52,965 nucleotides of DNA from Pseudooceanicola lipolyticus. Its GTDB lineage: Bacteria > Pseudomonadota > Alphaproteobacteria > Rhodobacterales > Rhodobacteraceae. Where the stretch lies: contig NZ_PGTB01000018.1 in the NCBI RefSeq assembly GCF_002786325.1, positions 1-52,965 on the forward strand, read 5' to 3'. Each line of letters opens with the position of its first letter. Position 1 is the stretch's first letter. The notes below the pieces were generated by a model. That model ran no database searches, was not told the DNA's origin, and was given only the letters and a program-made list of their open reading frames with translations. The translations under genes and the position numbers were made by a program. Positions 4,301 through 18,259 of the stretch are shown here, piece after piece.

Positions 4301-4417
4301 ATGGTGGCCCGCAGGAAGAAACGTGCCACAGAAACTTCACTATCGAGCAACCTCTCGCGCCCAGAGTCCAATGAAATTTCCCTTACTGTTCAATACGCAA
4401 GCGCCAGGCTCACGTGA
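4301..4417 (+). CDS. possible small protein coupled to the phosphoesterase gene
   Basis: A 38-codon open frame starts at ATG 4301 with GGAGG at 4291-4295. An in-frame ATG at 4289 is an alternative. The product is basic at its N-terminus (M-V-A-R-R-K-K-R) and otherwise polar, with no recognised motif. Its TGA lies 20 bases before the preferred TTG start of the next gene and overlaps that gene's alternative GTG start in a GTGA. This could be a leader peptide that couples translation into the following gene, or chance. Only position and the ribosome binding site support it, so confidence is low. Confidence 0.3.
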   Translation: MVARRKKRATETSLSSNLSRPESNEISLTVQYASARLT

Positions 4418-4437
4418 TCTATGTCAGGGGTTCGATC

Positions 4438-5673
4438 TTGATTAAAATTCTTCACACTGCTGACGTCCATTTGGACTCTCCCCTCAGGTCACTGGCCTTG
4501 CGCAACTCGGACCTTCGCGACGCGGTTGCAGCAGCCTCCCGGTCCGCTTTCCGCGGACTGGTCGATTTCGCCATCTCCGAACAGCTCTCCGCAGTCCTGA
4601 TTTCCGGCGATCTGTTCGATGGAAAAGAGCGCAGCGCAAGAACGGGCGCCTTCCTGATGGCCGAGCTTGATCGCCTTGGCGATGCGGGGATCAAAGTTTT
4701 CTACATCAAAGGCAATCATGATGCCGAGAACCCGATCACCGGAACGCTCGATCTGCCTGCCCACGTTCACGCTTTCGATGCACGCGGCGGCATGGAGCCG
4801 CTGACAGACGACATCGTGATCCACGGTGTCAGCTTCGCGGACCGTCACGCGCCCGACAGCCTTCTGCCGCGGTTCAAACCGCCGGTTCCGGGCGCGGTAA
4901 ATATTGCCATGCTGCACAGCTCGCTTGGCGGTGCGGCGGGTCATGATATCTATGCCCCCTGCAGCCTCGCCGATCTGGCCGGCATGGGGTTCGATTATTG
5001 GGCGCTCGGCCATATCCACAAACGGCAGGTCCATTCGGCCGCACCTTGGATTGTCATGCCCGGCACCCCGCAGGGGCGCGATATAGGCGAGTCCGGCCCA
5101 AAATCCGCAACTCTGCTGACCATCGATCAGGGCCAGATCGATATTTGCGAAGTGCCCAGTTCGGTCGTGGAATTCGCCCAAAGCGAACTGGATGTGACAG
5201 AGACGGAGAGCGACGAGGCTCTGCGCGGGCTGCTGAAGTCCCACCTGAGTGCGATGCGCAACCAGATCGCGGCGCCGATCGGCGTTATCCGACTGATCTT
5301 GACCGGAAAGCCGAAGCGCCATTGGCAAATCCTACGGGATCGCGACGTCTGGAGCGAACAGGTGAACGAGCTTGCCCAGGCCACCGGGGATCTCTGGATC
5401 GACAAACTCCTGTTCGACCTGCCGCCGCCGGACGCAACCGAAGGCGCAAGCGGCGCCGCCGACGAACTGGCGACGATCATGGCAACGATCCGCGAAGACC
5501 CTGGGTTTGCAGCCCTCGCCCGCGACGAGGTCGAGACAGTCCTGCAGGATCTGCCTGTTGCTCTGCGCGACCGGCTGATGGCGGATGGGGCCGCCCGCGA
5601 TGCGATGGTGGATAAATTGACCAAGGCGGGCGCCGAACTCGTCCTGGCCCAGATGAAGGGGGCCGGACACTGA
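4438..5673 (+). CDS. SbcD/Mre11-like metallophosphoesterase, YhaO type
   Basis: A 411-residue calcineurin-like phosphoesterase of the YhaO/SbcD family, expected to be the nuclease partner of an SMC-like ATPase in DNA end processing. With TTG 4438 as start the metal motifs are D9-x-H11 (HTADVHLD), G57-D58 (SGDLFDG), G92-N93-H94-D95, H160 (MLHSSLGG), and H192 and H194 (GHIHKRQ). All five phosphodiesterase motifs are therefore present. TTG 4438 is chosen because family proteins begin with the M-I-K-I-L-H-T-A-D-V-H block and CAGGGG lies seven bases before it. GTG at 4414 is a possible longer start. The C-terminal 150 residues probably form the capping and partner-binding region. The stop codon overlaps the ATG of the YhaN-like gene, so both are surely co-translated as one complex. 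Confidence 0.88.
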   Translation: MIKILHTADVHLDSPLRSLALRNSDLRDAVAAASRSAFRGLVDFAISEQLSAVLISGDLFDGKERSARTGAFLMAELDRLGDAGIKVFYIKGNHDAENPITGTLDLPAHVHAFDARGGMEPLTDDIVIHGVSFADRHAPDSLLPRFKPPVPGAVNIAMLHSSLGGAAGHDIYAPCSLADLAGMGFDYWALGHIHKRQVHSAAPWIVMPGTPQGRDIGESGPKSATLLTIDQGQIDICEVPSSVVEFAQSELDVTETESDEALRGLLKSHLSAMRNQIAAPIGVIRLILTGKPKRHWQILRDRDVWSEQVNELAQATGDLWIDKLLFDLPPPDATEGASGAADELATIMATIREDPGFAALARDEVETVLQDLPVALRDRLMADGAARDAMVDKLTKAGAELVLAQMKGAGH

Positions 5674-8600
5674 TGCGGCTCCAGCGCCTCTCCCTTGATC
5701 GTTTCGGCCATTTCACCGACCGACACTTCGACTTTGGCTCGGCCTCCGATGGCCATGATTTCCACATCATCTATGGCCCGAACGAAACCGGCAAGACCAC
5801 CACGATGGAAGCCGTCCTACGGCTATTCTACGGCTTCCCGCTGCGCGAGGGCTATGCGTTCAAGCATCCGCGCAATAACCTGCAAGTCTCGGCCAGGCTG
5901 GATATCGACGGTGTCTTGCGTGATTTCACGCGACTACCGACGCGCAGCGGATCGCTGGTCGACGCGACCGGCACCCCGCTGCCCGAGGCTGCCCTCTCCG
6001 CCCATCTCGCGGGATTGTCCGAAGAGGATTACCGCCGCCTGCTCTGCCTTGACGACGAGACAATCGAACGCGGCGGCGAAGAGATCGCAAATGCCGAAGG
6101 GGATATCGGGCGCCTGCTCTTTTCCGCTGCAGCGGGCGTGGCCGACCTGAGCACCGTTCTGGATCACGTCCGCGAGCGGGCCGACGCGCTATGGAAGAAA
6201 CGCGGACGCACCACCCGCATGGCCGAATTGAAACGCGCCTTGGCCGACGTTGAAAAAGAGATCAAAGACCGCGACGTGACCGCCAGCGCCTGGAAGGCCC
6301 TCAAGAAAGATTTGCGCAAGGCACAAGAGGCCGAGCGGGAGGCGCGCAAGACGCGGGATGCGCTGAATCTGACGAAGGCGCGCATGGAGGCGCAGCGGCG
6401 TGCCCTGCCCCTGATGGGCGAGATCCGGGACCTGGAACAGGCGATTGCCTCTTTCGCGAGTTATCCCGATCATCTGGATTTCGATCCGGAACGGCTGATC
6501 GAGCTAAACAGAGACCGTGGGCTGGCCACACAGAATATCGCACGCCTGACCGAGGAGATCGCGAACCTCAGGGAAAATCGCGACGCCGTCGCCTTGGATC
6601 CGAAGCGTCTTGAGCTTTCGACCGCGCTGGCAGCGCTGGAGGATCTCGCCGCGCGGGATCGAACCGCACAGCTCGACCTTGACAGGCGCGAGGACGAACG
6701 GCGGGCCGCGGAGGCATCGATGAAGCAGGCTGCATGGGATCTTGGGGTCACCTCGCCGGACGTCGATCTGCAAGGGCTGGTCCTGTCGGGCGCCGATATT
6801 GCGTCTCTGGAGAGCGCCAGGGAAGCTTTGCGCGAGGCGATTTCCCAAGAAAAGATCGAGGCGCGCGAAACCGCCGAATTGAAAGAGCGGGTGATCGCCG
6901 CGACCGAAGCCATGCAGGATGGCGCGCCCGCGGATGAGGAACGCCCACAGGTAGCAGATATTCTGCTGCGCTTCGATGCGGAGACCCTCGCCCCTGCCTA
7001 CGCCGCAGCGCAACAGGCGATCGCGGATATGAAGATCAAGGCGCGGCGCTCCCTGGCTGCCCTCTCATTCGCAGGCGTCACTTTCGATCACCTACCCGCC
7101 TGCCCGACCTCCCGTCACCAGGCAACCAACTGGGCCGAGCGCCATCAGGACTTGCTTCACGACCTGCGCACGACAACGGCAAAGCGCGACGAGCATCTGG
7201 AGGATGCGGAGGCCCGCGGGGCTCAGGCCAAATCACTGGCCCGGGACGCGAAGCTCATCTCGGATGCCGATGCCGAGGATCTGCGCGCGCGGCGCGATGC
7301 ACGCTGGGCGGAGCATCTTGCCGCCTTGGACAGACAGACCGCCGCCGACTTCCACGAGGCAATGCAAGGGCATGATATCGCTGCCGAAGCGCGATTGGCG
7401 CAGTCCCGCGAACTGGCACAGCTCCGCGAAATCGGCCAGGCCGAAGCCCAGGCCCGCGCCCGTGCGGCTCAGACCGACAAACGCCTGGAAACCCTTCGTG
7501 AAGAACGCACCAATATCGAGGCCTCGGTCAGCGCGGCGGCGGCTCAGGTTGGCCTTCCAGACAGCATCACGCCTGCGGAATGGTTGGACTGGCGGCGAAG
7601 TCACGAGGCGGCCAGCGAAGATGCCCAGGCCCTGCGCGATACCGAAGAGACCAATCAATCCACCCTCCAACGCGCCGACGCCCTACTGGCCGAGCTGGCC
7701 CGGACCCTGCCCTTTCCCCCGACAGATCTGACCGGCGCCCTGGCGGCGGCCCGGCGTCAGGCCGAGGACGACCGCAAGCAAACCGACGCCCATACAACGG
7801 CCGAGGCAACCCTGCGACAGGCGCAGCGGGATCTTGCCCGGCGCGAAGAGCGTTACGCAAAAGCGTTTAAGGCAAGGGAGGATACGAAGAAGACCTGGCG
7901 CGCACTGGTCCACGACCTCCTCGGAGTGGCATTGCCCCCCGAACGGCTGGAGGCATCGCTGGAGCCCCTGCGCGCTTTGCGCGAACACGAAAACACACGG
8001 GCCGCAGCCGGGCGCCGGATCACAACCATGCAGGCGGACCAAAAGCAGTTCACCCAGGAGATCGACAGCCTGGCACGCGCCCATGGGCAGGAGCCTCACG
8101 CAACGGCGGCAAAGACATTCGCCGCCCTCAAAACCCTGGCGGAAAAAGCGCGCTCGGCCACTGAGACGGGCCGAAAACTCGACACCGCGATCGAGACGGC
8201 CGAGGCCGATCTTGTCGAACACAAGGATCGACAAAACGCCATCGACCAAGAGGTCGCGACCATCGCCATGCTTTTCCCCGATACGACCACCCCGGGCGAT
8301 ATCGGCGCCCTGCGCGAGGCCGCAATTCGCACGCAGAAAGCAATCGACAACCGCGCCGCGCTGGCGAAAATCACCCGCCAGGTCCTGGCCGAACTGGGCA
8401 CGACCGACATCGAGACAGCCCGCGCCCAGCTTGCAGAGTCCTCAGTTGCCGCATTGGAGGGCGAACTCGACAGCAACCGATCCGATCTTGCCCATGCCGA
8501 GGACGAGCTGACCCTCGCCATTCAAAACCGCACAGCCGCCGAATATGCCCTAGCCGAGGTGAAGGGAGACGACACGGTTGCGGAATTGGTCGAGCAGAAA

Positions 8601-9110
8601 GCGACGCTGGAACTGCAGCTCGAAGAGGCTGCCTTGGAGCATCTCGAACTTTCCCTGGGCCATCACCTCGCCTCCGACGCCATCCGGCGCTATCGCGACA
8701 GCCATCGCAGCGGCATGTTGACAGCCACGGAAGACTGCTTCGCCAGTCTCACGCAAGGCGCCTATCCGACCCTGAGTACCCAGATCGACAAGGAGTCCGA
8801 GATTTTGCTCGCCGTCGATGGCAATGGGGTCAGCAAGCGTGCGGTCGAAATGTCCAAGGGCACGCGCTTCCAGCTATACTTAGCGCTGCGGGCAGCGGCC
8901 CACGAACAACTTGTCGCGCAGGGTACGAGGCTCCCTTTCTTTTGCGATGACATCTTCGAAACCTTCGACGAGGCACGCACCAGCGCCGCCTGCCGCGTCA
9001 TGGAAGCCATCGGCGGACGCGGCCAAGCGATCTACCTGACCCACCACCGCCACGTGGTCGAGATCGCAAAGAGCGTTTGCGTAACGCCTCCGGTCATTCA
9101 TGAACTTTAA
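5673..9110 (+). CDS. Rad50/SbcC-like AAA family ATPase, YhaN type
   Basis: A 1,145-residue SMC/Rad50-like ATPase of the YhaN group. The Walker A motif GPNETGKT is at residues 35-42. A long charged region rich in Glu, Arg, Ala and Leu from about residue 160 to 1000 should form antiparallel coiled coils. The C-terminal lobe holds an ABC-signature-like segment with SKGTRFQLYLALRAA, then Walker B with LPFFCDDIFETFDEARTS, then a switch-like LTHHRHVVEIA. No CxxC zinc hook is visible in the coiled-coil apex region, which fits YhaN rather than Rad50/SbcC. The gene starts with an ATG whose A is the last base of the upstream phosphoesterase stop. With that partner it should form a nuclease/ATPase complex acting on DNA ends or structures. 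A dGTPase gene follows in the same direction after 24 bases. Substrate and role in defence are inferred. Confidence 0.87.
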   Translation: MRLQRLSLDRFGHFTDRHFDFGSASDGHDFHIIYGPNETGKTTTMEAVLRLFYGFPLREGYAFKHPRNNLQVSARLDIDGVLRDFTRLPTRSGSLVDATGTPLPEAALSAHLAGLSEEDYRRLLCLDDETIERGGEEIANAEGDIGRLLFSAAAGVADLSTVLDHVRERADALWKKRGRTTRMAELKRALADVEKEIKDRDVTASAWKALKKDLRKAQEAEREARKTRDALNLTKARMEAQRRALPLMGEIRDLEQAIASFASYPDHLDFDPERLIELNRDRGLATQNIARLTEEIANLRENRDAVALDPKRLELSTALAALEDLAARDRTAQLDLDRREDERRAAEASMKQAAWDLGVTSPDVDLQGLVLSGADIASLESAREALREAISQEKIEARETAELKERVIAATEAMQDGAPADEERPQVADILLRFDAETLAPAYAAAQQAIADMKIKARRSLAALSFAGVTFDHLPACPTSRHQATNWAERHQDLLHDLRTTTAKRDEHLEDAEARGAQAKSLARDAKLISDADAEDLRARRDARWAEHLAALDRQTAADFHEAMQGHDIAAEARLAQSRELAQLREIGQAEAQARARAAQTDKRLETLREERTNIEASVSAAAAQVGLPDSITPAEWLDWRRSHEAASEDAQALRDTEETNQSTLQRADALLAELARTLPFPPTDLTGALAAARRQAEDDRKQTDAHTTAEATLRQAQRDLARREERYAKAFKAREDTKKTWRALVHDLLGVALPPERLEASLEPLRALREHENTRAAAGRRITTMQADQKQFTQEIDSLARAHGQEPHATAAKTFAALKTLAEKARSATETGRKLDTAIETAEADLVEHKDRQNAIDQEVATIAMLFPDTTTPGDIGALREAAIRTQKAIDNRAALAKITRQVLAELGTTDIETARAQLAESSVAALEGELDSNRSDLAHAEDELTLAIQNRTAAEYALAEVKGDDTVAELVEQKATLELQLEEAALEHLELSLGHHLASDAIRRYRDSHRSGMLTATEDCFASLTQGAYPTLSTQIDKESEILLAVDGNGVSKRAVEMSKGTRFQLYLALRAAAHEQLVAQGTRLPFFCDDIFETFDEARTSAACRVMEAIGGRGQAIYLTHHRHVVEIAKSVCVTPPVIHEL

Positions 9111-9134
9111 GACATCGCGCCGAGGAGAGTTGAT

Positions 9135-10475
9135 TTGAGTACTTGGAATGCTCGCCGAGAGGCCTGGAACCCGCAGAAGGAAGACGCCCGGAATATCGGG
9201 GATGTCGACTATGGCCGGGTGATCCATTCGGCATCATTCAGAAGATTGCAGGGCAAGACCCAGATCCTGAATCTCGGCGACAGTGATTTCTATCGCACGC
9301 GCCTGACGCATTCCTTGGAAGTTGCTCAGATCGCGGGAGGGCTCGCAGTCCAGCTCGCGCGCAGTTTCCCCGATCACTCGGCAACGGCAAGTCTCCCGGA
9401 CCGCAGCCAAATCCATGCGATCGCCTGCTCCCACGACCTGGGCCACCCACCATTCGGCCATGGCGGTGAAGTCGCACTGAACTACTGCATGCGCGATGCG
9501 GAAGGGTTCGAGGGCAACGGCCAGACCCTGCGTCTCCTGGCACGGCTCGAAAACTTCTCTGCCGCTGCGGGGGCCAACCTGTCACGTCGTTCCATGCTTG
9601 GCGTCTTGAAATACCCTGTTGCACTCTCAAGGTTGCGCAACCCCGAATTGCGCCCGCGGTTGCAGGAGGGCCCTTCGGTTCTGCAAACCATCGACTTGAA
9701 AGCCTCGACTCCGCCAAAGGGATATCTCGACAGCGAAACCGACGTCGTCGACTGGATTCTCGAGCCGCTCGGCAATGCCGATCGGGATGCCTTCACGTCG
9801 ATCGAAAAGCGCGAAGGCAAGCATGCCCGCACTCTCCACAAGTCTCTCGATTGCAGCATCATGGATCTCGCGGACGATATCGCCTACGGGGTCCATGATT
9901 TGGAGGATGCCATTGCACTTCGGCTCGTCACAGAGCGCCAGTTCCGCGACCTCGTTCCCGAGGAATCCTGCAAGATCTTTGTCGAAGAAAGGCGGCTGAA
10001 GGGCCCCACCGAGAGCAACGCCCCATACGAGGCCATGGTCGACGGGCTGTTTGGCGACAGCAACACGCGCAAGCGCTGGATCAGCCGGTGGGTCAATCAT
10101 CTGATTACACCCGTCCGTTTCATCGAATGTCCCGAATTCCAAGACCCCTTGCTCCGCTGGCGCGTCGAGATTCCAGAAGGTCAGGCCCGCTTCCTCAAGG
10201 CCCTAAAAGAGCTCGTAATGCAGGTGGTTATTCGCAGTCCGGGCGTGCAACATCTCGAATTCAAGGGGCAATCCATGGTTGTCTCGGTCTTTGAGGCAAT
10301 GCAATCAGATCCAGAACGTTTGCTCCCGCGCGATGCGCAAGCGAAATTCGAAGCAGCAGATGGCGACCTCCGGCACATCAGCGATTTCGTGGCTGGTATG
10401 ACCGACACCTATCTGCTCAAGACCTATGAAAGGCTGTTCGAGCCGAGGATGGGCTCAGTGTTCGACAAGCTTTAG
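9135..10475 (+). CDS. dgt: dGTP triphosphohydrolase (HD domain)
   Basis: A 446-residue deoxyguanosinetriphosphate triphosphohydrolase family protein, which hydrolyses dGTP (or other dNTPs) to deoxynucleoside and triphosphate. The HD-domain ligands are visible. RTRLTHSLEV supplies H59, the HACSHDLG-type block supplies H100-D101, GHPPFGHGGE follows at 103-112, and the distal Asp lies in IMDLADDIAYGVHDLEDA. The start codon is TTG at 9135, with GAGGAG at 9122-9127. It is the third gene after the YhaO/YhaN-like pair, separated by only 24 bases, so it is probably in the same transcript. dGTPases are known both as housekeeping enzymes and as antiphage enzymes that deplete dNTP pools. Linkage to a nuclease complex inside an accessory island favours the second reading, as inference. 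Length and active site look complete. Confidence 0.88.
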   Translation: MSTWNARREAWNPQKEDARNIGDVDYGRVIHSASFRRLQGKTQILNLGDSDFYRTRLTHSLEVAQIAGGLAVQLARSFPDHSATASLPDRSQIHAIACSHDLGHPPFGHGGEVALNYCMRDAEGFEGNGQTLRLLARLENFSAAAGANLSRRSMLGVLKYPVALSRLRNPELRPRLQEGPSVLQTIDLKASTPPKGYLDSETDVVDWILEPLGNADRDAFTSIEKREGKHARTLHKSLDCSIMDLADDIAYGVHDLEDAIALRLVTERQFRDLVPEESCKIFVEERRLKGPTESNAPYEAMVDGLFGDSNTRKRWISRWVNHLITPVRFIECPEFQDPLLRWRVEIPEGQARFLKALKELVMQVVIRSPGVQHLEFKGQSMVVSVFEAMQSDPERLLPRDAQAKFEAADGDLRHISDFVAGMTDTYLLKTYERLFEPRMGSVFDKL

Positions 10476-10534: not shown

Positions 10535-10981
10535 CTACTTTCCGGTGAGCCATGCGGTGAAGCGGGCCCAGCCACTCTTCTTGACCTTCGAAGCGTTAGT
10601 GGCCGCAGGTGTGTCGGCAACAATCTGCACCGGTGGACCATACATTGCAGCCCGCGCTCGCCCATCGCGCAGAAGCCCTGCCGTGACTTCGGCGTCTGAC
10701 CACGATCCAGCCTCCACAACTTTCCCCTCACGCAGGACGTAGTGTGACCGGCACTTCAGGAGCCAGTTGCCTACTGACGGGTGAAGTGAAACCACGTTGC
10801 CGTCGAACGTAATTTTCCACTGCGCCGGCGCGAACGGAGTCACCACCTCCTCCCCGCATCCGCAGCAGCACAAGTGCGCGGCCGTGGCGTACTCCATCGA
10901 GATGTAGAGGATGCCCGGGCTCAGTTCATCCGGCATGTGCCGGACAAACTGATGATCTAGGCGCTTGTACGTCAGCATCAT
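10535..10981 (-). CDS. DUF6527 family protein of a ubiquitin-like system
   Basis: A 148-residue protein matching DUF6527, the small protein repeatedly found beside Multi_ubiq ubiquitin-like proteins and E2-E1 fusion enzymes. Family features seen are M-P-D-E-L at residues 16-20, YISMEYATAAHLCCCGCG at 26-43, the strand EEVVTPF, and SLHPSVGNWLLKCRSHY at 65-81. Cysteines at 38, 39, 40, 42 and 77 and histidines at 36 and 80 could bind metal or form an active site. The ATG at 10981 overlaps the E2-E1 stop in an ATGA, so translation is coupled; a second ATG follows immediately. A longer open frame upstream lies inside the E2-E1 gene and is rejected. By position it takes the place of the JAB isopeptidase of related systems, so processing or removal of the modifier is a reasonable guess. 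The biochemical role is inference. Confidence 0.8.
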   Translation of the reverse strand: MMLTYKRLDHQFVRHMPDELSPGILYISMEYATAAHLCCCGCGEEVVTPFAPAQWKITFDGNVVSLHPSVGNWLLKCRSHYVLREGKVVEAGSWSDAEVTAGLLRDGRARAAMYGPPVQIVADTPAATNASKVKKSGWARFTAWLTGK

Positions 10982-12150
10982 TGATCCCCGTTCAGCAGCA
11001 GATTGCCATCGGTCGTGTAGGTGCAGTGGTGCTCGCCCTCCAGGTCCCGGTAGAAACCGCGCAGCTTCTTCCACTTGATCACCGCCAAGACGGCGTTGAG
11101 GGCGTTTAGGTCCGCAACCTGGATGTTGGTGGCGTAGAGGTCTGCGCCCTTGTCGTCACTAAAGTCGATGCGGCCGGCATGGATGTGCTGGCGCTTGGCC
11201 GGCGTGCTGGCGGTCATGCGCAGAATACCGCCAAGCGACCCGTCGTCGATTTGCAGGCCCATGCCAACGTCGATGAACGAGGCGCCGATCGCCTCAAGCT
11301 TTTGGATCACCGCCTTCTTCGACGGACCGTCGTCGATGCAGATGAAACCGAACGTCACCCCGTCCAGCAGGTGCGCGTTCGTGGTGTCGATCGCGACGGA
11401 ATAGGGCACAATCCCTTTACGCATGCGCGAGTAGTTCTTCGCCCAGTAGTCAACCTTGAGCGGGAGTTCGCGCAACTCCTCCAAGGATGCCGCGCCCGGG
11501 GCCCTGAAGGCGTTGTGCGACACGAACTCGTCCGCATCGAACAAACGGATCTCTACCACCGGCGTCTTGGCGACAAGGTCGAAGACGTACCCGCCCGTCC
11601 CACCTAAGCCGATGATCGCGACCGTGTCCTGCGCCAGCTTCTCAGCCAAGGCGCCCAGTCCCGCGCGCCCCGTGGCGGTATCGACGTAGTTGAACACAGA
11701 CGCCTCTTCTTCCTCGGGGACAGCGTTGCCGCGGGCGGTGACGCCCGGCGACACGGTCGTCGCCGGGCCCGAGATCACCGCGATGTAAGTCGTCATCTTG
11801 TGATGGTAGTCGCGATAGCCGCCCTCCGGTTTGTTCGAGAACCCGTGGCGTGCGACCAGACCGTGACCGAGGTTCGAAGCGTTGTCCTGATGGCGCAGCG
11901 CTTCGATCGGACGGCCATCCACGCCGCATGGGTACTCACCGATCCAGTGGATCACATGTGTCTCAGGCGGTCGGGTCTGGTCGCCGGCCAGGTTGAGGGT
12001 GGAGACCAGGGTCCCGCGCTTCAGCTCCTGCTTGGCGTTGAGGTACGGCACCTCGCGCAGGACCAAGAGATTGCCCTTGATCTGCACGAGGTAGCCGTCC
12101 TCTCGAAGTTGCTTCAGGTCGGCGCTACGAGCGAACGGTGCGGGTGACAT
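10978..12150 (-). CDS. E2-like/ThiF E1-like fusion enzyme of a ubiquitin-like system
   Basis: A 390-residue two-domain protein. Residues 1 to about 130 match the E2-like DUF6791 region, with VPYLNAKQELKRGTLVSTL at 34-52 and HVIHWIGEYPCG at 65-76. Residues 165-390 are a ThiF/E1 adenylyltransferase with the nucleotide loop GLGGTGG at 181-187, D205 and D207 in LFDADEF, N213, R216, K232 and D273-D274. Only three cysteines exist, at 75, 271 and 376. The crossover-loop region RMTASTPAKR at 311-320, where a canonical E1 has its thioester cysteine, has none. The ATG at 12150 overlaps the ubiquitin-like gene by 26 bases and the stop overlaps the DUF6527 start. Expected reaction: adenylation of the ubiquitin-like C-terminus and transfer to a target. 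How the activated intermediate is carried without the usual cysteine is an open question. Confidence 0.85.
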   Translation of the reverse strand: MSPAPFARSADLKQLREDGYLVQIKGNLLVLREVPYLNAKQELKRGTLVSTLNLAGDQTRPPETHVIHWIGEYPCGVDGRPIEALRHQDNASNLGHGLVARHGFSNKPEGGYRDYHHKMTTYIAVISGPATTVSPGVTARGNAVPEEEEASVFNYVDTATGRAGLGALAEKLAQDTVAIIGLGGTGGYVFDLVAKTPVVEIRLFDADEFVSHNAFRAPGAASLEELRELPLKVDYWAKNYSRMRKGIVPYSVAIDTTNAHLLDGVTFGFICIDDGPSKKAVIQKLEAIGASFIDVGMGLQIDDGSLGGILRMTASTPAKRQHIHAGRIDFSDDKGADLYATNIQVADLNALNAVLAVIKWKKLRGFYRDLEGEHHCTYTTDGNLLLNGDQ

Positions 12151-12523
12151 TGAAGACCGTCCCTTTCCTCACCTTGACCTTACCGCCCGGGCCAAGTTCG
12201 CCCGCGTGCGGGTGCGCCGCCGCATGACGGTAGGTCATGGAATAGACCGTGTTCTGGTCCGCAGTACCGCCCGGGAAGGCGAGCTGCACGACCTGCTCGA
12301 ACCCCGCGATCTTGCCGGGGATCTCGCGAGGGCGCGAGTTAACGATGATCTCGGTCTCGTGGTGCGCGAGGGCGCCTTCGATCTCATGCTCCGCTTTGCG
12401 GATTTCGTCCTCGGTGCGGTGTTCGGCCTGGTGGGCCAGCGTCAGGTCGTGCTTCGCCGCCTTCAGGTGGTCCAGCCCGTGCTCGATATCTGGCGGTTTA
12501 CCGCCATTTTGGGGAGACGTCAT
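12125..12523 (-). CDS. ubiquitin-like protein, single Multi_ubiq domain
   Basis: A 132-residue protein. Residues 57-132 match the Multi_ubiq beta-grasp family: EIIVNSRPREIPGKIAGFEQ, VVQLAFPGG, NTVYSMTYRHAA, and the end GGKVKVRKGTVFNVTRT. Many relatives carry two or more tandem copies; this one has one. Residues 1-55 are charged and His-rich and probably helical, and look unrelated to the beta-grasp fold. The chain ends in T-V-R-S with no diglycine tail, so either the C-terminal residue is used directly or the end is trimmed first. The ATG at 12523 has AAGGA about 11 bases upstream. The gene is followed by the E2-E1 fusion with a 26-base overlap and preceded by the helicase gene after 88 bases. 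It is the presumed modifier of the system. Its targets are unknown. Confidence 0.82.
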   Translation of the reverse strand: MTSPQNGGKPPDIEHGLDHLKAAKHDLTLAHQAEHRTEDEIRKAEHEIEGALAHHETEIIVNSRPREIPGKIAGFEQVVQLAFPGGTADQNTVYSMTYRHAAAHPHAGELGPGGKVKVRKGTVFNVTRTVRS

Positions 12524-12611
12524 TTTTCAGTAATCCTTCGTTTCGTGACCAGCCTCTTGGGCTACAAATGGTTAATCGATGCGAAGGCGGTGAACTGGTA
12601 AGAGGGCCAAC

Positions 12612-15600
12612 TTAAATTTTCAGGGTGCCGGGCGAGACCGGGCCGCAAACGAAAAATGCCGGGCAACCGGGGCATGTGCGTTCCGATGGTACGGCGCTGA
12701 AGGCCCCGGCTCTGATCTTAGCAAGATAGGACGATAGGGTCAGCTGGCGGTTGCGCAACACAGTGGCGCTCAGGCTCAAGGGCGTGACCGCCTTGTCCGT
12801 AAGGTGGACCAGCTCGACGCGGGCGCCAGATCCACGCTGCTGCGCCGCCAAGAGCAACGAGGCCGCTCCGACATCGGAATCCTCCTTGGAGCGGAGCCGG
12901 CCCGTGCGCACGCGCCGGAATACCAGCGTCCCGTCGGGCGCCGTCACCACATCCTCCGCGCGGAAGATGAGCTCATCACCGTCCAAGGTCAGCCGAAGCA
13001 CCGTGGGCGTGACGGCGGTGGCGCCGGCGCGCGTCGACCGGAAGTAGCGGACCATCTCGACTGCGGCGGCTTGCAGCTCGGCGAGCACGCCGCATTCCTC
13101 GAGCCCGTGGTCGATGCATGCACGAGCGACATGCTGGACAAGGTCCGTATCGGCCGTGATGTCGATCTCGCCCGCCACGACGGCCTGAGTCACCGCCCGC
13201 ACGGCCTCGTGCATGAGCATATAGACGGTCTCGGAACGGCGGCCGCCGATCTGAAGAACATGGGTGTAGAAGAAGCGCCGCGGGCACGGCTCATAGAGGG
13301 ACAGCTGCGAACCGGTGAACTGGAGCTTGCCGCTGACCACGAGGTTGATCGGCGCGTCTTCGGGCTTGGGCGGCAGCGTCCTCGAGGGCGTTATCGATCG
13401 ACGCGCCAGGTTGCCCGCAAGCTGGTCGAGGAACGGCGACAGCGGCCGCGCCGCATCGTTGGACTTGTGGGTGACCGCGTAGAGGAAGAGACGGTCGCGC
13501 GCCCGCGACGCTGCGACGTAGAACAGGCATTCCCGCTCCTCCGCATCTCCCGCGCGGAACACCGTCAAGGCGTCGCCCTCGCCGCCGGCGATCATGCCGT
13601 CGGGCGGCAGGCACGCCGGGGACTTGGCGTTGCCCGGCAGGGTGTCCTGGTTCAGCCCGGGCAAATGGACGACCGGGAACTCCAAGCCCTTTGCGCCATG
13701 CACGGTCATGAGCCGCACCGCGTCGAGGCTTTGCGACGCGGCCGGCAGCTGGCGCAGGTCGCGATCATCGCCGATCCGGACCAGGCGTCGGACCCGATCG
13801 AGGAGGCGCCGCACGGGCCACCCACGCCCGTTCGGCTGGACGCGCAAGAAGTTCATGAACTGCCAAATCGCGATGCCGCGCGACCGATCAGACACCGACG
13901 TCGCGGTGGCGATGTCGGCGGCGATCCGCGTCCGCTCGAGCAGGACCGCGGTGAGGACATTCCATGGCGAGGAGGTTTCGGAAAACCCCGCGAGCACGGC
14001 TTGGAGGCGCGCCCAGGCGGCGCGGCCCGGTTCGCTCAACGTCGCAGGGTCGATCTTCGACCAGCCCCCCGGAACACCCTCCTCTTCCGAGTCGCGCAGC
14101 GCGCCGAGCACCACGGCGACGTCGGCAAGCGACAACGCAAACTGCGGCAGAGCCCCGACCCGAACGACGCCCATCGCGCGCGTATCGACGAGGAGTGACA
14201 GGATCGCCAACAGATCCTTGACCTCGGGGCGTTCGAACAGGCTGCCCAAGAAGAGCACCGGGATCCCGAGACGTTCGAGGTCCCGCCCGATCGACGACAG
14301 GCGCTCGTTGCCTGTGCAGAGCACAGCCTGGTCGCGATACTTGTAGCCGCCAGCGCGCATCGCCTCGATCGCGTCAGCGATAGCGACGACCTGTTCGTCG
14401 CCCTGTCGGACCGCGTGGAGCTCGACGGGCGCGCCGAGCGCACCGCGATCGGATTCGAGGCCGGTATCGCCGTTCGACACCTTCATCTTTGTGGCGAAGG
14501 ACGAAAAGGCATCGACCACCTCTTTGGACGAACGGTAGTTGCGCTTCAAACGGCCGCGTGCGCCGCCGTGGAAATCCTCTTTGCCGAAGCGAGCCGTGTT
14601 GAACGACGAAGCGCCCCGGAACCGATAGATCGACTGCTTGGCGTCGCCCACCACCCAGAGATTCTCGCCCGTCGGGCAGATCGCCTCCAGAAGGCGAACA
14701 CTGCTCCGGTTGACGTCTTGGTACTCGTCGACCAGCACATGGTCATAGGCGCCTTGAATGCTCGCCCGGACACCCGCGTCACTTTCGAGGAGCTGCACGG
14801 GCATCGACACGAGATCACCGAAATCGATGCAGTGGGCCCCGCGCTTGAGGCGTTCATAGGCGTCGTAGACCACGGCGACCTCCGCCGCCTTCTCGGCCTG
14901 GTCAATCTGATCACTGGTTGTCGCCCTCGCGTGCATCGCGGCCGCCAGGGCCGCGTACCCGTCAGCATCAACTACCTCGTCCTTGGCGCGCGAAATCGCC
15001 GAGAGAATATCGGCGATGTTGCGGGTCGGGTCGTAGAGGTCCTGGTAGTGCTTCAGGTGAAGCCGCGGAAACTCTTGCTCGAGCAGCTCAACAGCCTCGG
15101 TGCGGTCCATCATCCGCGGCTCGTTTGGAAGGCCGAGCTGGGGCGCAAAGCGCCGCACAATGTCTAGACCAAAGGCGTGGAACGTGCCCATCCACATTGC
15201 AGCGGCCGCTTCGGGGTACTTGCGCGCGATCCGCTCGGTCATCTCCCCGGCGGCCTTGTTGGAGAAGGTCAAGACGAGGATGCGTCGAGGATCGACCCCA
15301 TCCGCGAGAAGGCCCTCGATGCGGCCCGTCAGCGTTTGGGTCTTGCCGGTGCCCGGGCCGGCCTCAAGCAGATAGGCGCCGCCACGATGCTTGGCCGCTG
15401 CGCCTTGCAGGTCGTTGAGCGGCCGCTCGACGTGCGGCTTCTCAGCGATCAGGGGTTCGATCGGCAGCAGCAATGCGTCGAGCAGTTGCTGTGAGACGAC
15501 ATCGATGGGCGCCCTCATCTGCGCTGCGATCTGCGACGCGGTCTGCCCCTCCTCGACGTGAAGTCGCCGCACGAGGGCCCGTGGCAGCAGGAACTCTCGC

Positions 15601-16007
15601 GCGAAGAGGTCCATCTGGACCTCGCGACGCTGATGGCGACCATAGTCGACCACCCGATCGAAGCCGACCGGAGACGGTTCGGACGGGCGGACCGGGTCGA
15701 TCTCGTTTACGGTCACCGGTCCGGCTTCGTCACCAAGCTCAACGTGGCCCAGTTCATGGGCGACGAGGAACGCCTGCTCGAATTCCGAGCCGATGTTCTC
15801 GTGGATAATCAGGCCATCGGCGGGGACATATGTCGCCCGACCGCCGTCGAGGATGCCGGCCCCCGGGTTCGCCTTTTCGACGTCGAGCCCGCGACGCTTG
15901 GCTTCAGCGAGCGTGAACGCATAGGGCTGCCGCGGGTCTTTGCCGGTTGCAACCGCTTGCTCGTGCAGATCGGCGGCCCGGCGTCGGCCAAGTTCGGCGG
16001 CGTCCAT
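12612..16007 (-). CDS. ImmA/IrrE peptidase-UvrD helicase fusion with degenerate nuclease domain
   Basis: A 1,131-residue fusion. Residues 60-145 are an ImmA/IrrE zinc peptidase with AHELGHVELGDE (H84-E85-x-x-H88) and a later acidic ligand helix near DLFAREFLLP at 133-142. Residues 200 to about 850 are a superfamily I UvrD/Rep helicase with Walker A GPGTGKT at 217-223, Walker B in HVLVDEYQDVNRSS, VVGDAKQSIYRFRGA, VHGAKGLEFPVVHLPG and YVAASRARDRLFLYA. From about 895 the protein resembles the RecB/AddB-type PD-(D/E)XK region, with C908 in LYEPCPRRFFY and a final cysteine cluster C1112, C1115, C1121 like an iron-sulfur clasp. The expected D-x-K of the nuclease site is replaced in VFRRVRTG, so the nuclease is probably inactive. 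The upstream HTH gene ends one base before the ATG. A role as a DNA-damage sensor that cleaves a regulator is inference. Confidence 0.85.
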   Translation of the reverse strand: MDAAELGRRRAADLHEQAVATGKDPRQPYAFTLAEAKRRGLDVEKANPGAGILDGGRATYVPADGLIIHENIGSEFEQAFLVAHELGHVELGDEAGPVTVNEIDPVRPSEPSPVGFDRVVDYGRHQRREVQMDLFAREFLLPRALVRRLHVEEGQTASQIAAQMRAPIDVVSQQLLDALLLPIEPLIAEKPHVERPLNDLQGAAAKHRGGAYLLEAGPGTGKTQTLTGRIEGLLADGVDPRRILVLTFSNKAAGEMTERIARKYPEAAAAMWMGTFHAFGLDIVRRFAPQLGLPNEPRMMDRTEAVELLEQEFPRLHLKHYQDLYDPTRNIADILSAISRAKDEVVDADGYAALAAAMHARATTSDQIDQAEKAAEVAVVYDAYERLKRGAHCIDFGDLVSMPVQLLESDAGVRASIQGAYDHVLVDEYQDVNRSSVRLLEAICPTGENLWVVGDAKQSIYRFRGASSFNTARFGKEDFHGGARGRLKRNYRSSKEVVDAFSSFATKMKVSNGDTGLESDRGALGAPVELHAVRQGDEQVVAIADAIEAMRAGGYKYRDQAVLCTGNERLSSIGRDLERLGIPVLFLGSLFERPEVKDLLAILSLLVDTRAMGVVRVGALPQFALSLADVAVVLGALRDSEEEGVPGGWSKIDPATLSEPGRAAWARLQAVLAGFSETSSPWNVLTAVLLERTRIAADIATATSVSDRSRGIAIWQFMNFLRVQPNGRGWPVRRLLDRVRRLVRIGDDRDLRQLPAASQSLDAVRLMTVHGAKGLEFPVVHLPGLNQDTLPGNAKSPACLPPDGMIAGGEGDALTVFRAGDAEERECLFYVAASRARDRLFLYAVTHKSNDAARPLSPFLDQLAGNLARRSITPSRTLPPKPEDAPINLVVSGKLQFTGSQLSLYEPCPRRFFYTHVLQIGGRRSETVYMLMHEAVRAVTQAVVAGEIDITADTDLVQHVARACIDHGLEECGVLAELQAAAVEMVRYFRSTRAGATAVTPTVLRLTLDGDELIFRAEDVVTAPDGTLVFRRVRTGRLRSKEDSDVGAASLLLAAQQRGSGARVELVHLTDKAVTPLSLSATVLRNRQLTLSSYLAKIRAGAFSAVPSERTCPGCPAFFVCGPVSPGTLKI

Positions 16008-16008
16008 C

Positions 16009-16584
16009 CTAGTCGACGTCCGCTAAAAGCCGAGCCCGGTCGTCGTCCGAAACGCCCGCATCGATCAATACGCGCTCGAACGACAGCTGCACGGCCGCGG
16101 CCGGCTGTGCGTCGGCCCGGTAGCTACGGGCGAACGCGGCCGCGGGCGGCGGCGATAGCCAGGCGAAAAGGTCGTCGGCCGAGATCGAGAGCGCTCCGGC
16201 GAACCGCCGCATGAAGCCACGCGGGACCGAGGCCGGCTGGATGCGACGTTCGCGGAACGAGGTCACGACCTGGCGCGGAATGCCCATTTCGACCGCGATC
16301 TCGCGACTACGGGTGGGCGAGAGCGCCCCGAACGGGTCGGCCGCTGATTTCGGTTGGGCGGCGGCGTGCTTCAGCCAACCGGCGTCGATCATGGCCACGT
16401 CCGCGGCCGAGAACTCGTTCTCCGGCGGCCGCGCCTGCATGAGCTCGCGCGACAGGTCGATCAGTTCGCCAGCGTACTGCGGATACGTGGTCAGATAGCG
16501 ATCGAGGGTCACCTTTGCGTGGGTTTCTTCCATCGCGAACGCGTCGAGGACGTCTTCAAGCCGGTCAGCGTTTGGATCGGTCAT
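16009..16584 (-). CDS. putative HTH regulator paired with ImmA/IrrE-helicase
   Basis: A 191-residue soluble protein without a firmly recognised family. Residues 8-50 are helical and acidic, with a TLDRYLTTYPQYAGELIDLS block. Residues 91-143 look like an XRE-type helix-turn-helix: SREIAVEMGIPRQVVTSFRERR, then FMRRFAGALSISADDLFAWL. The C-terminal 50 residues are Ala-rich, with a VLIDAGVSDDDRARLLADV helix. Its ATG overlaps the sigma-like gene stop by four bases and its stop lies one base before the ImmA/IrrE-helicase start. Helix-turn-helix repressors next to ImmA/IrrE peptidases are often the substrates of those peptidases (ImmR/ImmA, DdrO/IrrE), so this protein is a candidate cleavage target or anti-sigma partner. 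That role is inferred from position only. Confidence 0.62.
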   Translation of the reverse strand: MTDPNADRLEDVLDAFAMEETHAKVTLDRYLTTYPQYAGELIDLSRELMQARPPENEFSAADVAMIDAGWLKHAAAQPKSAADPFGALSPTRSREIAVEMGIPRQVVTSFRERRIQPASVPRGFMRRFAGALSISADDLFAWLSPPPAAAFARSYRADAQPAAAVQLSFERVLIDAGVSDDDRARLLADVD

Positions 16585-17372
16585 TGGTCGTCTCCTTCGA
16601 TCAGCACCCTACGCAGCGTCTTTATTGCCCGGTCGCGGTAGTTCCAGATCGTTTTCGGCGACTTTTTCAGGGCCGTGCAGATCGTGATGACGTCCGGGTC
16701 CTCGGAATGGATTTGATATCCTAGCATAAGCATCTGGATTGTCCTGCTTTGTTCTGGTGGCAGGGTCTCAATCGCCGCGTCCAGCCGCAACCGGAACGCC
16801 TCATTGTCGATTTCCAATCCCTCGAGCGGATTGGCCCTCCCTGCCGCCTCTTCGATCTCCGGACTGAGCTCGCCGCTGTCGTCTTCATAGGAGAGCGGCT
16901 GAAAGCGGTTTTCGTCGCGCCAAGCTTGCCTCTGCGCGTCCTGCCGCAGGCGTTTGAGCGCCATGTCGAACCGGATCTCGAAGAAATCGAGCCGCTCGTC
17001 GTATACTTGGCGGTCTCCCGCCATCATTTCGACGAAACGGCCATACACCTTCTCGCGGATGCGTTCACGCGTCAGCGAGCGTGACGCTCCGTCAGCGGCG
17101 TCTGCAGTTGGCAGAGCGCGTAGCACCCGGGCGGATAAGATCTTGTAGAGCCGCTCGAACCACGCGTCTGAGTTGTCGGCACGGCTCGCTCGCACAAAAT
17201 AAACCAAGCACTCAGTGGGGATATACCCGGCATCGTCGCGCGCACGAATCTGCGCGCGGGCGAGAAGCTCGTCGCGCGAGAGGTCCTTCAGTGCATGAAG
17301 CAACGCCTCGATCCTCGCGGGTCGGCGGTATCTAGACTTGTCCTGTTTCTGCTTCCGTAGCGCTATAATCAA
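16581..17372 (-). CDS. sigma-70-like factor, first gene of the ubiquitin-like cluster
   Basis: A 263-residue protein resembling a divergent sigma factor. Residues 45-145 are helical with aromatic and basic positions as in region 2 (for example FVRASRADNSDAWFERLYKI). Residues 192-256 look like region 4: LRLDAAIETLPPEQSRTIQM, then a helix-turn-helix around ICTALKKSPKTIWNYRDRAIK. The start is a TTG at 17372 with GGGGG about five bases before it; no good ATG is available nearby. It is the first gene of the minus-strand cluster and overlaps the HTH gene by ATGA. It could direct transcription of the cluster itself, with the HTH protein and ImmA/IrrE peptidase controlling it. Family assignment is by eye and moderately sure; a region 4-only regulator is an alternative. 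Confidence 0.68.
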   Translation of the reverse strand: MIIALRKQKQDKSRYRRPARIEALLHALKDLSRDELLARAQIRARDDAGYIPTECLVYFVRASRADNSDAWFERLYKILSARVLRALPTADAADGASRSLTRERIREKVYGRFVEMMAGDRQVYDERLDFFEIRFDMALKRLRQDAQRQAWRDENRFQPLSYEDDSGELSPEIEEAAGRANPLEGLEIDNEAFRLRLDAAIETLPPEQSRTIQMLMLGYQIHSEDPDVITICTALKKSPKTIWNYRDRAIKTLRRVLIEGDDQ

Positions 17373-18259
17373 ATTTACCCCCGCCCTGGAGTTCCCACAA
17401 TTGCCCGCGCGCGAAAGCGACAGGCGTCGTTCAACTATCGGGCAGAGCCGTCTTAGCTACTCCCATTTAGTAATCGGCGCCAAAAGGACGAACCGGTAAT
17501 CGTCGCGCCGAATATTTCGGTACGGCGAAAGACTACGTGCTAACGGCCCATGTGTCCTTATCCAATCTGAGGCTGAGCCCGTCAGTACAGCATGGCACAA
17601 TCGCGCTCCCAACGGCTACGCACATCGCCCTCTCCCCAAAAATAATTGGTACTTGGTACAAGAGCAGAATGGATTAAGCTTTGATTTTATGACACAAATT
17701 GCGCTCTAACCGTCCAATCCATCATGGGGGCCACGGAAAGACGAAGAGAATGGCGATCTATCATTTTTTCTTACTCAGTTTCGCACCGCGGCCTGCACAT
17801 GCCCGTCCATATCAAAATCACCCATTCCTGCCAGTCTGTCGATCTTGCAAGCGCGCCTTTGGGCGACCTGAAACGGCGCGCAGATCGACCTGCACCCCGG
17901 TTTCTGCCGGCGTTGACCGAGACGCGGTGGACGCGAAAGCCGCAGCTCCGTCTTGCGGAATGACGCCCTGGCGCTTGCGGCGCGCGACAATCTCGGCACG
18001 GTTGATTGGGGCGTAGCTATACACGCCGGTGGCACCAGGGCCAAGCCAGTCGACCTTTCTTCGACCCTTGCAAAGATAAGAAGGCGAGGGCCGGCAAGAC
18101 CCCGGTTGGGTCACCGGCGACATGTTGGGCATTTCCGGTGCCACACCCCTGGAGCGGTTCTCGCGGTTGCGCACTCCTGACCAGCACCGGCGGGGCCGAT
18201 GCCCTCCTTCCTCGCAGGACAAAGCCACCCCACCAAAAGGGCGCGCCGCGAAACAGGTG
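17373..18259. other. junction gap between island and core genes
   Basis: This 887-base stretch separates the minus-strand ubiquitin-like cluster from znuB. The first part (to about 17,720) is lower in GC and must contain the promoter of the sigma-like gene. A tandem TTGGTAC repeat lies near 17,648. No tRNA, integrase, transposase or long direct repeat was recognised. The second part has open frames on both strands without family resemblance. The likeliest reading is decayed DNA at an island boundary. Confidence 0.5.
17818..18228 (-). pseudogene. possible decayed gene fragment
   Basis: A minus-strand open frame at the island-core junction. The part from about 18,060 down to 17,940 has codon use like a real gene, with GC-ending codons and a segment reading DWLGPGATGVYSYAPINRAE followed by a basic stretch. 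Upstream and downstream of this piece the frame loses that character. No start with a ribosome binding site is clear and I recognise no family. It may be the tail of a gene broken when the island inserted. A chance open frame in GC-rich DNA is the alternative. Confidence 0.25.

Follow-up and report, generated by a model that had tools for sequence, protein, structure and literature searches.

A ubiquitin-like conjugation cassette of Pseudooceanicola lipolyticus behind a candidate sigma-controlled, DNA-sensing switch

Why should genes for a ubiquitin-like conjugation pathway stand directly behind genes for a sigma-like factor, a helix-turn-helix (HTH)-like protein, and a fusion of a peptidase to a DNA helicase? 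The question is raised by a stretch of 52,965 nucleotides from Pseudooceanicola lipolyticus (contig NZ_PGTB01000018.1; the whole stretch is called here the window), in which six such genes lie in a row. Our answer, to which we give a probability of about 0.6, is that the first three genes (the module) encode a sigma-controlled, DNA-sensing switch for the three that follow (the cassette). The evidence that carries this reading is the association of the two halves in other genomes and on plasmids, and a bipartite promoter-like element that recurs at fixed places in the cluster. The genes are the following.

17372-16581, minus strand: sigma-like factor, similar to the extracytoplasmic function (ECF) type, 263 amino acids (aa), TTG start
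16584-16009, minus strand: HTH-like protein, 191 aa; 4-base overlap with the sigma gene
16007-12612, minus strand: fusion of ImmA/IrrE (PF06114), UvrD (PF00580), and PD-(D/E)XK (PF12705) domains, 1131 aa; 1 base from the HTH gene
12611-12524, minus strand: gap between the two halves, 88 bases
12523-12125, minus strand: ubiquitin-like protein (Ubl), PF14452 E = 9.5e-18
12150-10978, minus strand: DUF6791-ThiF protein, PF20590 E = 8e-58 and NF004802 E = 3e-190; 26-base overlap with the Ubl gene
about 10981-10535, minus strand: DUF6527 protein, putatively zinc-binding, PF20137 E = 5e-24; 4-base overlap with the DUF6791-ThiF gene

A preliminary description of this DNA had placed the six genes on one strand within 10535..17372, with tight junctions inside each half and 88 bases between the halves, and the coordinates bear this out. 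This order of genes is more than chance: it recurs in several genera and phyla, where about 70-110 bases separate the halves. Two of the protein names proposed there stand in part. The Multi_ubiq-type Ubl does match PF14452, with one recognized ubiquitin-like domain (residues 58-129) rather than several; and the proposed E2-E1 fusion has its ThiF/E1 domain, while none of the databases searched shows DUF6791 to be an E2.

Do the two halves belong together? Searches of overlapping genome samples with an alignment of the HTH protein gave matches in 5 of 390, 6 of 398, and 3 of 385 genomes, in all 11 different genomes, the window's own included. According to the preliminary description, halves that almost never co-occur would be unrelated neighbors; instead, all 11 genomes have sigma, HTH, and helicase genes together, followed by an E1-type cassette. 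Seen from the other side, a relative of the window's E1 is encoded on 41 contigs of the genome collection, and the module lies directly upstream, in the same order, on 19 of them, which hold the closer relatives (56-84% identity). The other 22 lack the module or are cut, at least three of them (L021, L035, and L040; such labels are our own for loci) too close to the cassette for a call, and one close relative without the module, L012, has a shortened E1. DUF6791 occurs in 7 of the 385 genomes of a class-wide sample, and the module in two of those seven, again counting the window's own. Thus, the conjugation cassette does not need the module.

On plasmids, a search with the sigma protein gives 77 records. 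Twelve of 14 regions fetched by their sigma match contain sigma, HTH, helicase, and cassette (with broken open reading frames, or ORFs, in L084 and L089-L092), and the other two, L093 and L094, hold a cut piece of the sigma gene only. Module and cassette are also present in all five further records from the plasmid list, which were fetched by an E1 or helicase match. A Robbsia locus (L054), retrieved through its helicase, contains HTH and helicase genes and a cassette in the opposite orientation; a recognized sigma gene is absent there, and a 222-aa ORF without a Pfam match occupies its place. One could then ask whether the halves are unrelated neighbors, kept by chance or hitchhiking on an island, as the 22 contigs and the inverted Robbsia cassette might suggest. 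This is hardly credible given a cassette in every HTH-anchored genome, a constant gap with its element, and the co-variation between two copies of that element described below; chance neighbors as such are ruled out by the module-side co-occurrence. We conclude that the two halves almost certainly form one functional unit.

What does the gap contain? Behind the helicase gene we find the element TT(A/T)CCGGT-N15-CGATT(A/G), in short TTWCCGGT-N15-CGATTR. The cluster has it at three places.

17471..17499, minus strand: P1, promoter-like element TTACCGGT-N15-CGATTA, 98 bases before the TTG start of the sigma gene; exact match to TTWCCRGT-N15-CGATTR
16769..16797, minus strand: P2, copy within the sigma coding sequence, 184 bases upstream of the HTH start; 1 mismatch
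12573..12601, minus strand: P3, copy of the element (TTACCAGT-N15-CGATTA) in the gap of 88 bases, 49 bases upstream of the Ubl ATG; exact match to TTWCCRGT-N15-CGATTR

P1 and P3 are the only two exact matches to the relaxed TTWCCRGT-N15-CGATTR in the 5.2-Mb genome. Allowing one mismatch, the genome has ten sites, three of them in the cluster, and the control with a reversed pattern gives three; allowing up to two mismatches, the window has 4 sites compared to a mean of 0.97 in 100 shuffles, none of which reaches 4.

The element is found at the same places in other loci. A score of at least 12/14 is obtained in 37 of 44 gaps versus 5 of 880 base-shuffled gaps. When wider intervals are scanned, P3 is present in the gap of 44 of 47 loci, and P2 in the 3'-terminal 350 bases of the sigma gene in 43 of 46. 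These counts leave out short duplicate loci, two viral loci, and the two sigma remnants L093 and L094, and they enter L003 as lacking P3 owing to its broken helicase ORF, although the element is present there. Both P2 and P3 score 12/14 in L097, which was scored apart. The spacer is exactly 15 bases long in 43 of 44 gap matches and in 43 of 43 intragenic matches. Random 330-base intervals of the same loci, with the elements left unmasked, match in 106 of 4000 cases. Among bare cassettes, those without the module, 1 of 26 has the element, namely L021, which is probably a truncated module locus because its contig is cut at the Ubl gene.

P2 lies in a coding sequence, and its conservation extends to the codons: where the protein has arginine and isoleucine at the positions of the two boxes, arginine is CGG in 30 of 38 distinct rows, against 8.7 expected from the same genes, and isoleucine is ATT in 34 of 40, against 14.3 expected; moreover, P2 and P3 have the same base (A or T) at the third position of their first box in 28 of 31 loci, with a shuffle mean of 16.4 and none of 20,000 shuffles reaching 28, the shuffle and codon probabilities both overstating the case because the rows are related. 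(The 31 pairs include no close relatives of retained rows and no loci in which P2 or P3 is absent.) The rarer variants are also common to P2 and P3: TTACCGAC in Acinetobacter, TTACCGGA in L069, L070, and L085, and TTTCCGAT in L087. This last locus, from Rhizobium beringeri, has in addition a second cassette, of the window's own type (type 1 below), inverted and diverging from the sigma gene. That second cassette comes with a copy of the element of its own, which lies on the opposite strand and precedes the Ubl start by 47 bases; this supports the action of a shared trans-factor.

We see no wider sigma regulon in the window's genome or in nine other module genomes, because site counts outside the cluster equal those of the reversed-pattern control. 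For the nine genomes and the TTWCCGGT form with at most one mismatch, there are 39 sites, 12 in the cluster and 27 outside, and the control gives 27; at this stringency the genomes G711 and G990 have no site in the cluster. Exact matches number six, all but one of them in the cluster. The element is probably the promoter of the cognate sigma factor. And because the gap holds a promoter-like element, each half seems to be a unit of one regulon with a start of its own, rather than part of a plain operon.

Is the first gene a sigma factor at all? It had been described as sigma-like, and TIGR02937, a model of ECF sigma factors, is matched by all 22 aligned homologs with E values no higher than 0.01, the best being 3e-7; the window's protein, at E = 6e-4, is below the model cut-off, and the call is mainly one of region 4. 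Five homologs were inspected closely. In L052 the sigma model TIGR02985 aligns over 3-162 of its 162 positions, in L081 TIGR02937 aligns over 38-165 of 165, and in L053 and L087 region 4 alone is matched. With region 4 as the main guide, we take the first gene to encode a putative ECF-like sigma factor.

The element could also be the operator of the HTH protein, acting as a CapH-like repressor. The "sigma" would then be an ordinary DNA-binding activator working with the housekeeping sigma factor, and cleavage of the HTH protein would derepress the cluster. This agrees with the name of response regulator that the first gene has in 15 of the 25 non-Acinetobacter plasmid rows listed (the Acinetobacter rows are mostly sigma-70), with a region 4 that is matched far better than region 2, and with derepression being the mode of CapH/CapP in excerpts of PMC13373217. 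An operator, however, would fit poorly with an element that is not palindromic and whose nearly fixed 15-base spacing is like that of -35 and -10 boxes. A TTGACA/TATAAT-like pair, of which 1.0 would be expected in the region, is found 0 times, and the spans of the sigma models over L052 and L081 also count against an ordinary activator. We find the operator unlikely, and the promoter of a dedicated sigma factor remains our preferred reading of the element.

Cassettes of different kinds stand behind the module, and for that reason we regard the module as a controller joined to different outputs. Type 1 consists of Ubl, DUF6791-E1, and DUF6527 proteins, and is found in the window, Agrobacterium, Acinetobacter, Klebsiella, Leptolyngbya, and others. 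Type 2 has a multiubiquitin protein, a ThiF protein, and DUF6527, with Prok-E2_E and JAB domains that were Pfam-tested in L054 and assigned by eye elsewhere. Type 3 (L084, from its annotation) has multiubiquitin, E2/UBC, ThiF, phosphotransferase, and DUF6527. Type 4 (L055, L086, and L088) begins with a small protein without a Pfam match, read as Ubl; it is followed by DUF7665 (tested only in L055), by a JAB-like protein at E = 0.03, and by an E1-like protein that has no Pfam match in L055, a ThiF match below cut-off in L086 (E = 0.013), and a ThiF annotation in L088. Type 5 (L087) has a Multi_ubiq protein ending in GG together with JAB-like and ThiF-like proteins, these two below cut-off. Type 6 (L067) is the 6A-MBL anti-phage system with a patatin (NCBIfam E = 2e-122 and 9e-196), and type 7 (L074) is Multi_ubiq and ThiF. 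Wherever families are recognized, the outputs are E1-type. On a tree built quickly from 43 helicase rows, the seven cassette labels need 8 changes, 6 being the least possible; the starred branches alone force at least 3 changes for type 2, and long branches make the details unsure.

If the module is a controller, which part of it would do the sensing? The third gene has, besides its UvrD motor, two domains of interest.

15483..15902, minus strand: M78/ImmA peptidase domain, PF06114 E = 3e-12; HExxH at residues 84-88
12645..13319, minus strand: PD-(D/E)XK domain, with R-x-R in place of D/E-x-K and its four conserved cysteines retained

Residue conservation was evaluated in 42 full-length helicase proteins, after dropping 14 of 56 HTH loci (9 short copies, 2 viral, and 3 with split helicase ORFs). 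The Walker A and Walker B (DE[YF]QD) motifs are intact in all 42, and HExxH is present in 41, the exception, L003, being a broken ORF. In the nuclease domain, the four cysteines and their leading histidine are kept in 42 of 42, and we take the cysteines for putative iron-sulfur (Fe-S) ligands. At what are presumably the catalytic positions, assigned from the RecB/Cas4 motif, D/E-x-K has become R-x-R; the lysine is kept in 2 of 42 proteins and an acid at the other position in none. The nuclease domain is thus predicted to be dead. An active nuclease effector, considered as a candidate, was ruled out by this loss of D/E-x-K. A protein that keeps its ATPase and its protease, and keeps a nuclease fold without the catalytic pair, would suit a DNA sensor.

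It might instead be that the peptidase-helicase is itself the effector, or a repair enzyme, and that the cassette serves to modify this protein or the partners it works with. Some loci do have UvrD/AddA-like proteins and other DNA-repair pairs as neighbors, and the intact ATPase motifs would serve an effector as well. We consider this quite improbable for a protein that has lost its nuclease site and whose partner cassettes differ while the element before them is the same, which is the arrangement of a controller. A separate observation on this gene is that it is split into overlapping ORFs in L051, L089, L090, and L092 (Acinetobacter plasmids) and in L091 (Rhizobium), with the E1 gene also split in L090. 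Splitting is not general: at least 19 other Acinetobacter records (H62-H80) are matched in one piece.

The second gene encodes the proposed repressor or anti-sigma factor, and the proposed substrate of the peptidase. Its earlier naming as an HTH protein finds little in Pfam: no relevant family for the window's protein, and weak HTH matches in a few of 23 members. The structure model has predicted helices and an HTH-like middle, with a predicted local distance difference test score (pLDDT) of 75 and a predicted template modeling score (pTM) of 0.48. Its top fold matches include HTH regulators, among them DdrO, all at E ≥ 1, and for that reason we take the likeness as a hint only. Two viral contigs of IMG/VR (L065:1702-2076 and L066:5737-6467) encode the N-terminal domain of this protein alone, its first ~95-100 residues. 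Both pieces stop immediately ahead of the DNA-binding part, at roughly the same position, and L066 additionally retains the sigma C-terminus with the P2 element; the protein of the L065 piece has no match in the phage collection. They may serve phages as inhibitors of the sigma switch; alternatively, they may be scars of recombination.

How would such a switch work? At rest, the HTH protein, with its N-terminal helical domain, central HTH, and C-terminal tail, would keep the sigma factor inactive, block the promoters, or do both. The ImmA-UvrD fusion would patrol the DNA, and single strands or ends would be sensed by its UvrD motor together with the dead Fe-S nuclease domain. Upon meeting abnormal or phage DNA, the M78 peptidase would cleave the HTH protein, and the freed sigma factor would transcribe from TTWCCGGT-N15-CGATTR at up to three places, P1 serving the sigma gene, P2 the HTH and helicase genes, and P3 the cassette. 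The Ubl, E1, and DUF6527 proteins would then be produced, and targets would be tagged. A sigma switch had already been sketched in the preliminary description, and its sigma part now gains sequence support from the repeated element. We think it probable that the peptidase acts on the HTH protein, and DNA is likely the trigger.

As to the outcome, we lean toward anti-phage defense. We argue for it from the link to 6A-MBL, the spread on plasmids, and the defense neighbors in the window, which are an anti-phage dGTPase (NF041026) and AbiEii. The presence of the module on many conjugative and mobilizable plasmids would also suit a different role, that of a stress-response or plasmid-maintenance unit that responds to DNA damage or to conjugative entry. 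We find such a role doubtful, since the same module stands before an anti-phage system in L067 and the window's cluster adjoins the dGTPase and AbiEii genes. More speculatively, the anti-phage reading could be extended to a dedicated-sigma immune regulon, in which a DNA-reading helicase-protease destroys the anti-sigma HTH protein and the released sigma factor turns on interchangeable cassettes from its private promoter, and to which phages answer with an uncleavable anti-sigma N-terminal domain; we put this forward tentatively.

Several observations weigh against a sigma-controlled, DNA-sensing switch. P1, upstream of the sigma gene, is found in 14 of 45 loci only; a clear P3 is missing in the divergent loci L074 and L054, and P2 in L074, L086, and L088. 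When relatedness is taken from the helicase tree, 4 independent P2/P3 pairs are left, of which 3.8 agree on average (sign test p 0.125). For the sigma assignment, region 2 support is weak in most members, region 4 being clear, and the L051 homolog has no NCBIfam match at 0.001. The HTH fold has weak support, with the pTM of 0.48 and a best Foldseek E of 1.0, no match falling below 1. A search of the PDB with the ImmA domain finds no relative among solved structures. Neither viral stretch, L065 or L066, has a helicase or E1 match, and some of the fetched plasmid copies have broken ORFs.

The C-terminus of the window's Ubl is ...TRTVRS, and the aligned Ubl rows (disregarding that of L003, which is in the wrong frame) end in a conserved ...T-x-T-x-x-S, without GG. 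In the window's clade (window, L003, and L004) the Ubl frame is short, about 130-150 codons versus ~250 residues in most relatives. The DUF6791-ThiF structure model is confident (pLDDT 88, pTM 0.85), and its closest solved relative is BubCD (Foldseek E = 1.5e-13; profile E = 6e-8). C75, in DUF6791, is the sole invariant cysteine among 33 E1 proteins and is placed after a run of strands; Y112, D114, Y115, H117, K118, and M119 of DUF6791 are invariant as well. It is possible that C75 is an E2-like active site. An hhalign comparison of DUF6791 with prokaryotic E2 (six Prok-E2_E rows) gives a probability of 2.7 and does not support a relation. In the DUF6527 protein, C37, C41, C76, and H79 are invariant in 18 of 18 aligned sequences. 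One further feature lies just before the cassette.

12521..12572, minus strand: leader after P3, with a weak predicted hairpin pairing part of the Shine-Dalgarno region

The leaders from P3 to the Ubl start in 39 loci, folded singly, often have a hairpin in which a ribosome site of the AAGG type is base-paired to a CCTT upstream of it, and translational control of the Ubl by this predicted hairpin is possible. Consensus folding of the P3 leaders, whose alignment is poor, gives no pairs.

How does the cluster compare with known systems? CapP is a peptidase of the M78/ImmA type and is a separate small protein. The ImmA-ImmR system of ICEBs1 pairs an HExxH peptidase with an HTH regulator. We know of no helicase fusion, sigma factor, or conjugation cassette in either ImmA-ImmR or PprI/IrrE-DdrO. 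Among the papers listed in searches of the open-access PMC literature, preprints not being covered, we see no description of a sigma/HTH/peptidase-helicase module.

According to excerpts of PMC13373217, CapH+CapP is an HTH protein with a peptidase that is activated by single-stranded DNA (ssDNA) and cuts CapH, and of 544 Bub operons 219 have a link with either CapW or CapH+CapP, and 59 have one with CapK+CapS. Like these regulators of Bub and of cyclic-oligonucleotide-based anti-phage signaling systems (CBASS), which in the same excerpts are encoded just upstream of ubiquitin-like or immune operons, the module stands just upstream of its cassette. It shares with CapH+CapP an M78 peptidase with HExxH. 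Unlike CapP, this peptidase is fused to UvrD and a predicted dead Fe-S nuclease domain in a protein of 1131 aa, and unlike CapH+CapP, CapW, and CapK+CapS as described in those excerpts, the module has a sigma gene in first place and a promoter-like element at up to three places. Because the feature of a stand-alone peptidase fails and a sigma factor is added, we do not file the module as CapH/CapP. The pairing of an HExxH peptidase with a putative HTH regulator also resembles PprI/IrrE-DdrO of Deinococcus; in the excerpts of PMC10904395, PprI is activated by ssDNA and cuts DdrO once ssDNA is bound, and CapP aligns with PprI.

The cassette resembles operon type 6e of Iyer 2006, given in the part of PMC1779556 consulted as polyUbl, RWD/E2, a JAB- or X-fused E1, and a zinc protein Y. 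Common to both are a Ubl, an E1 with a non-JAB domain, and a Cys/His putative zinc protein, whose ligand spacing is C-x3-C-x34-C-x2-H in DUF6527 versus C-x(3)-C-x(35-38)-H-x(2)-C in type 6e. Unlike type 6e, with its two to three tandem Ubl domains, the window has one. The terms sigma, UvrD, and helicase are absent from that part of the text. The Bub pathway offers the nearest E1, in BubCD (structures 9EA4 etc.). Only the E1 part aligns with it, over about 230-250 columns at 18-20% identity, and DUF6791 matched no BubCD domain. The 6A-MBL system of L067 stands behind the same module and element; its cassette, unlike the window's, is made of an MBL-fold protein, an E2-E1-JAB protein, and a patatin.

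Beside the cluster, at 4414-10475, the window has a metallophosphatase and AAA_27 ATPase pair (YhaO/YhaN-like) and the anti-phage dGTPase. In L005, L014, L087, and L094, the pair or one of its members is again present close to the module or to what remains of it. Tn7-like (TnsD) or TniQ/TniB genes adjoin the cluster or a sigma remnant in L053, a Klebsiella plasmid, and in L094, which suggests that the cluster travels as transposon cargo. On a Rhizobium leguminosarum plasmid (L091), a set of ImuA, DNA polymerase Y, and error-prone polymerase genes lies ~2 kb upstream of the sigma gene.

What would all this mean for bacterial ubiquitin-like systems? The excerpts of PMC13373217 count three families of controllers that are activated by DNA damage. 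If our reading is true, the module would add another family, the fourth, and one that follows a new logic, in which a sigma factor has its own private promoter and is itself controlled by the fusion of a protease to a DNA motor. The element would be a DNA handle for new cassettes, so that whatever follows it would be a candidate immune operon. And the cluster would contain a natural sensor for abnormal DNA, to which there may be a phage counter-measure.

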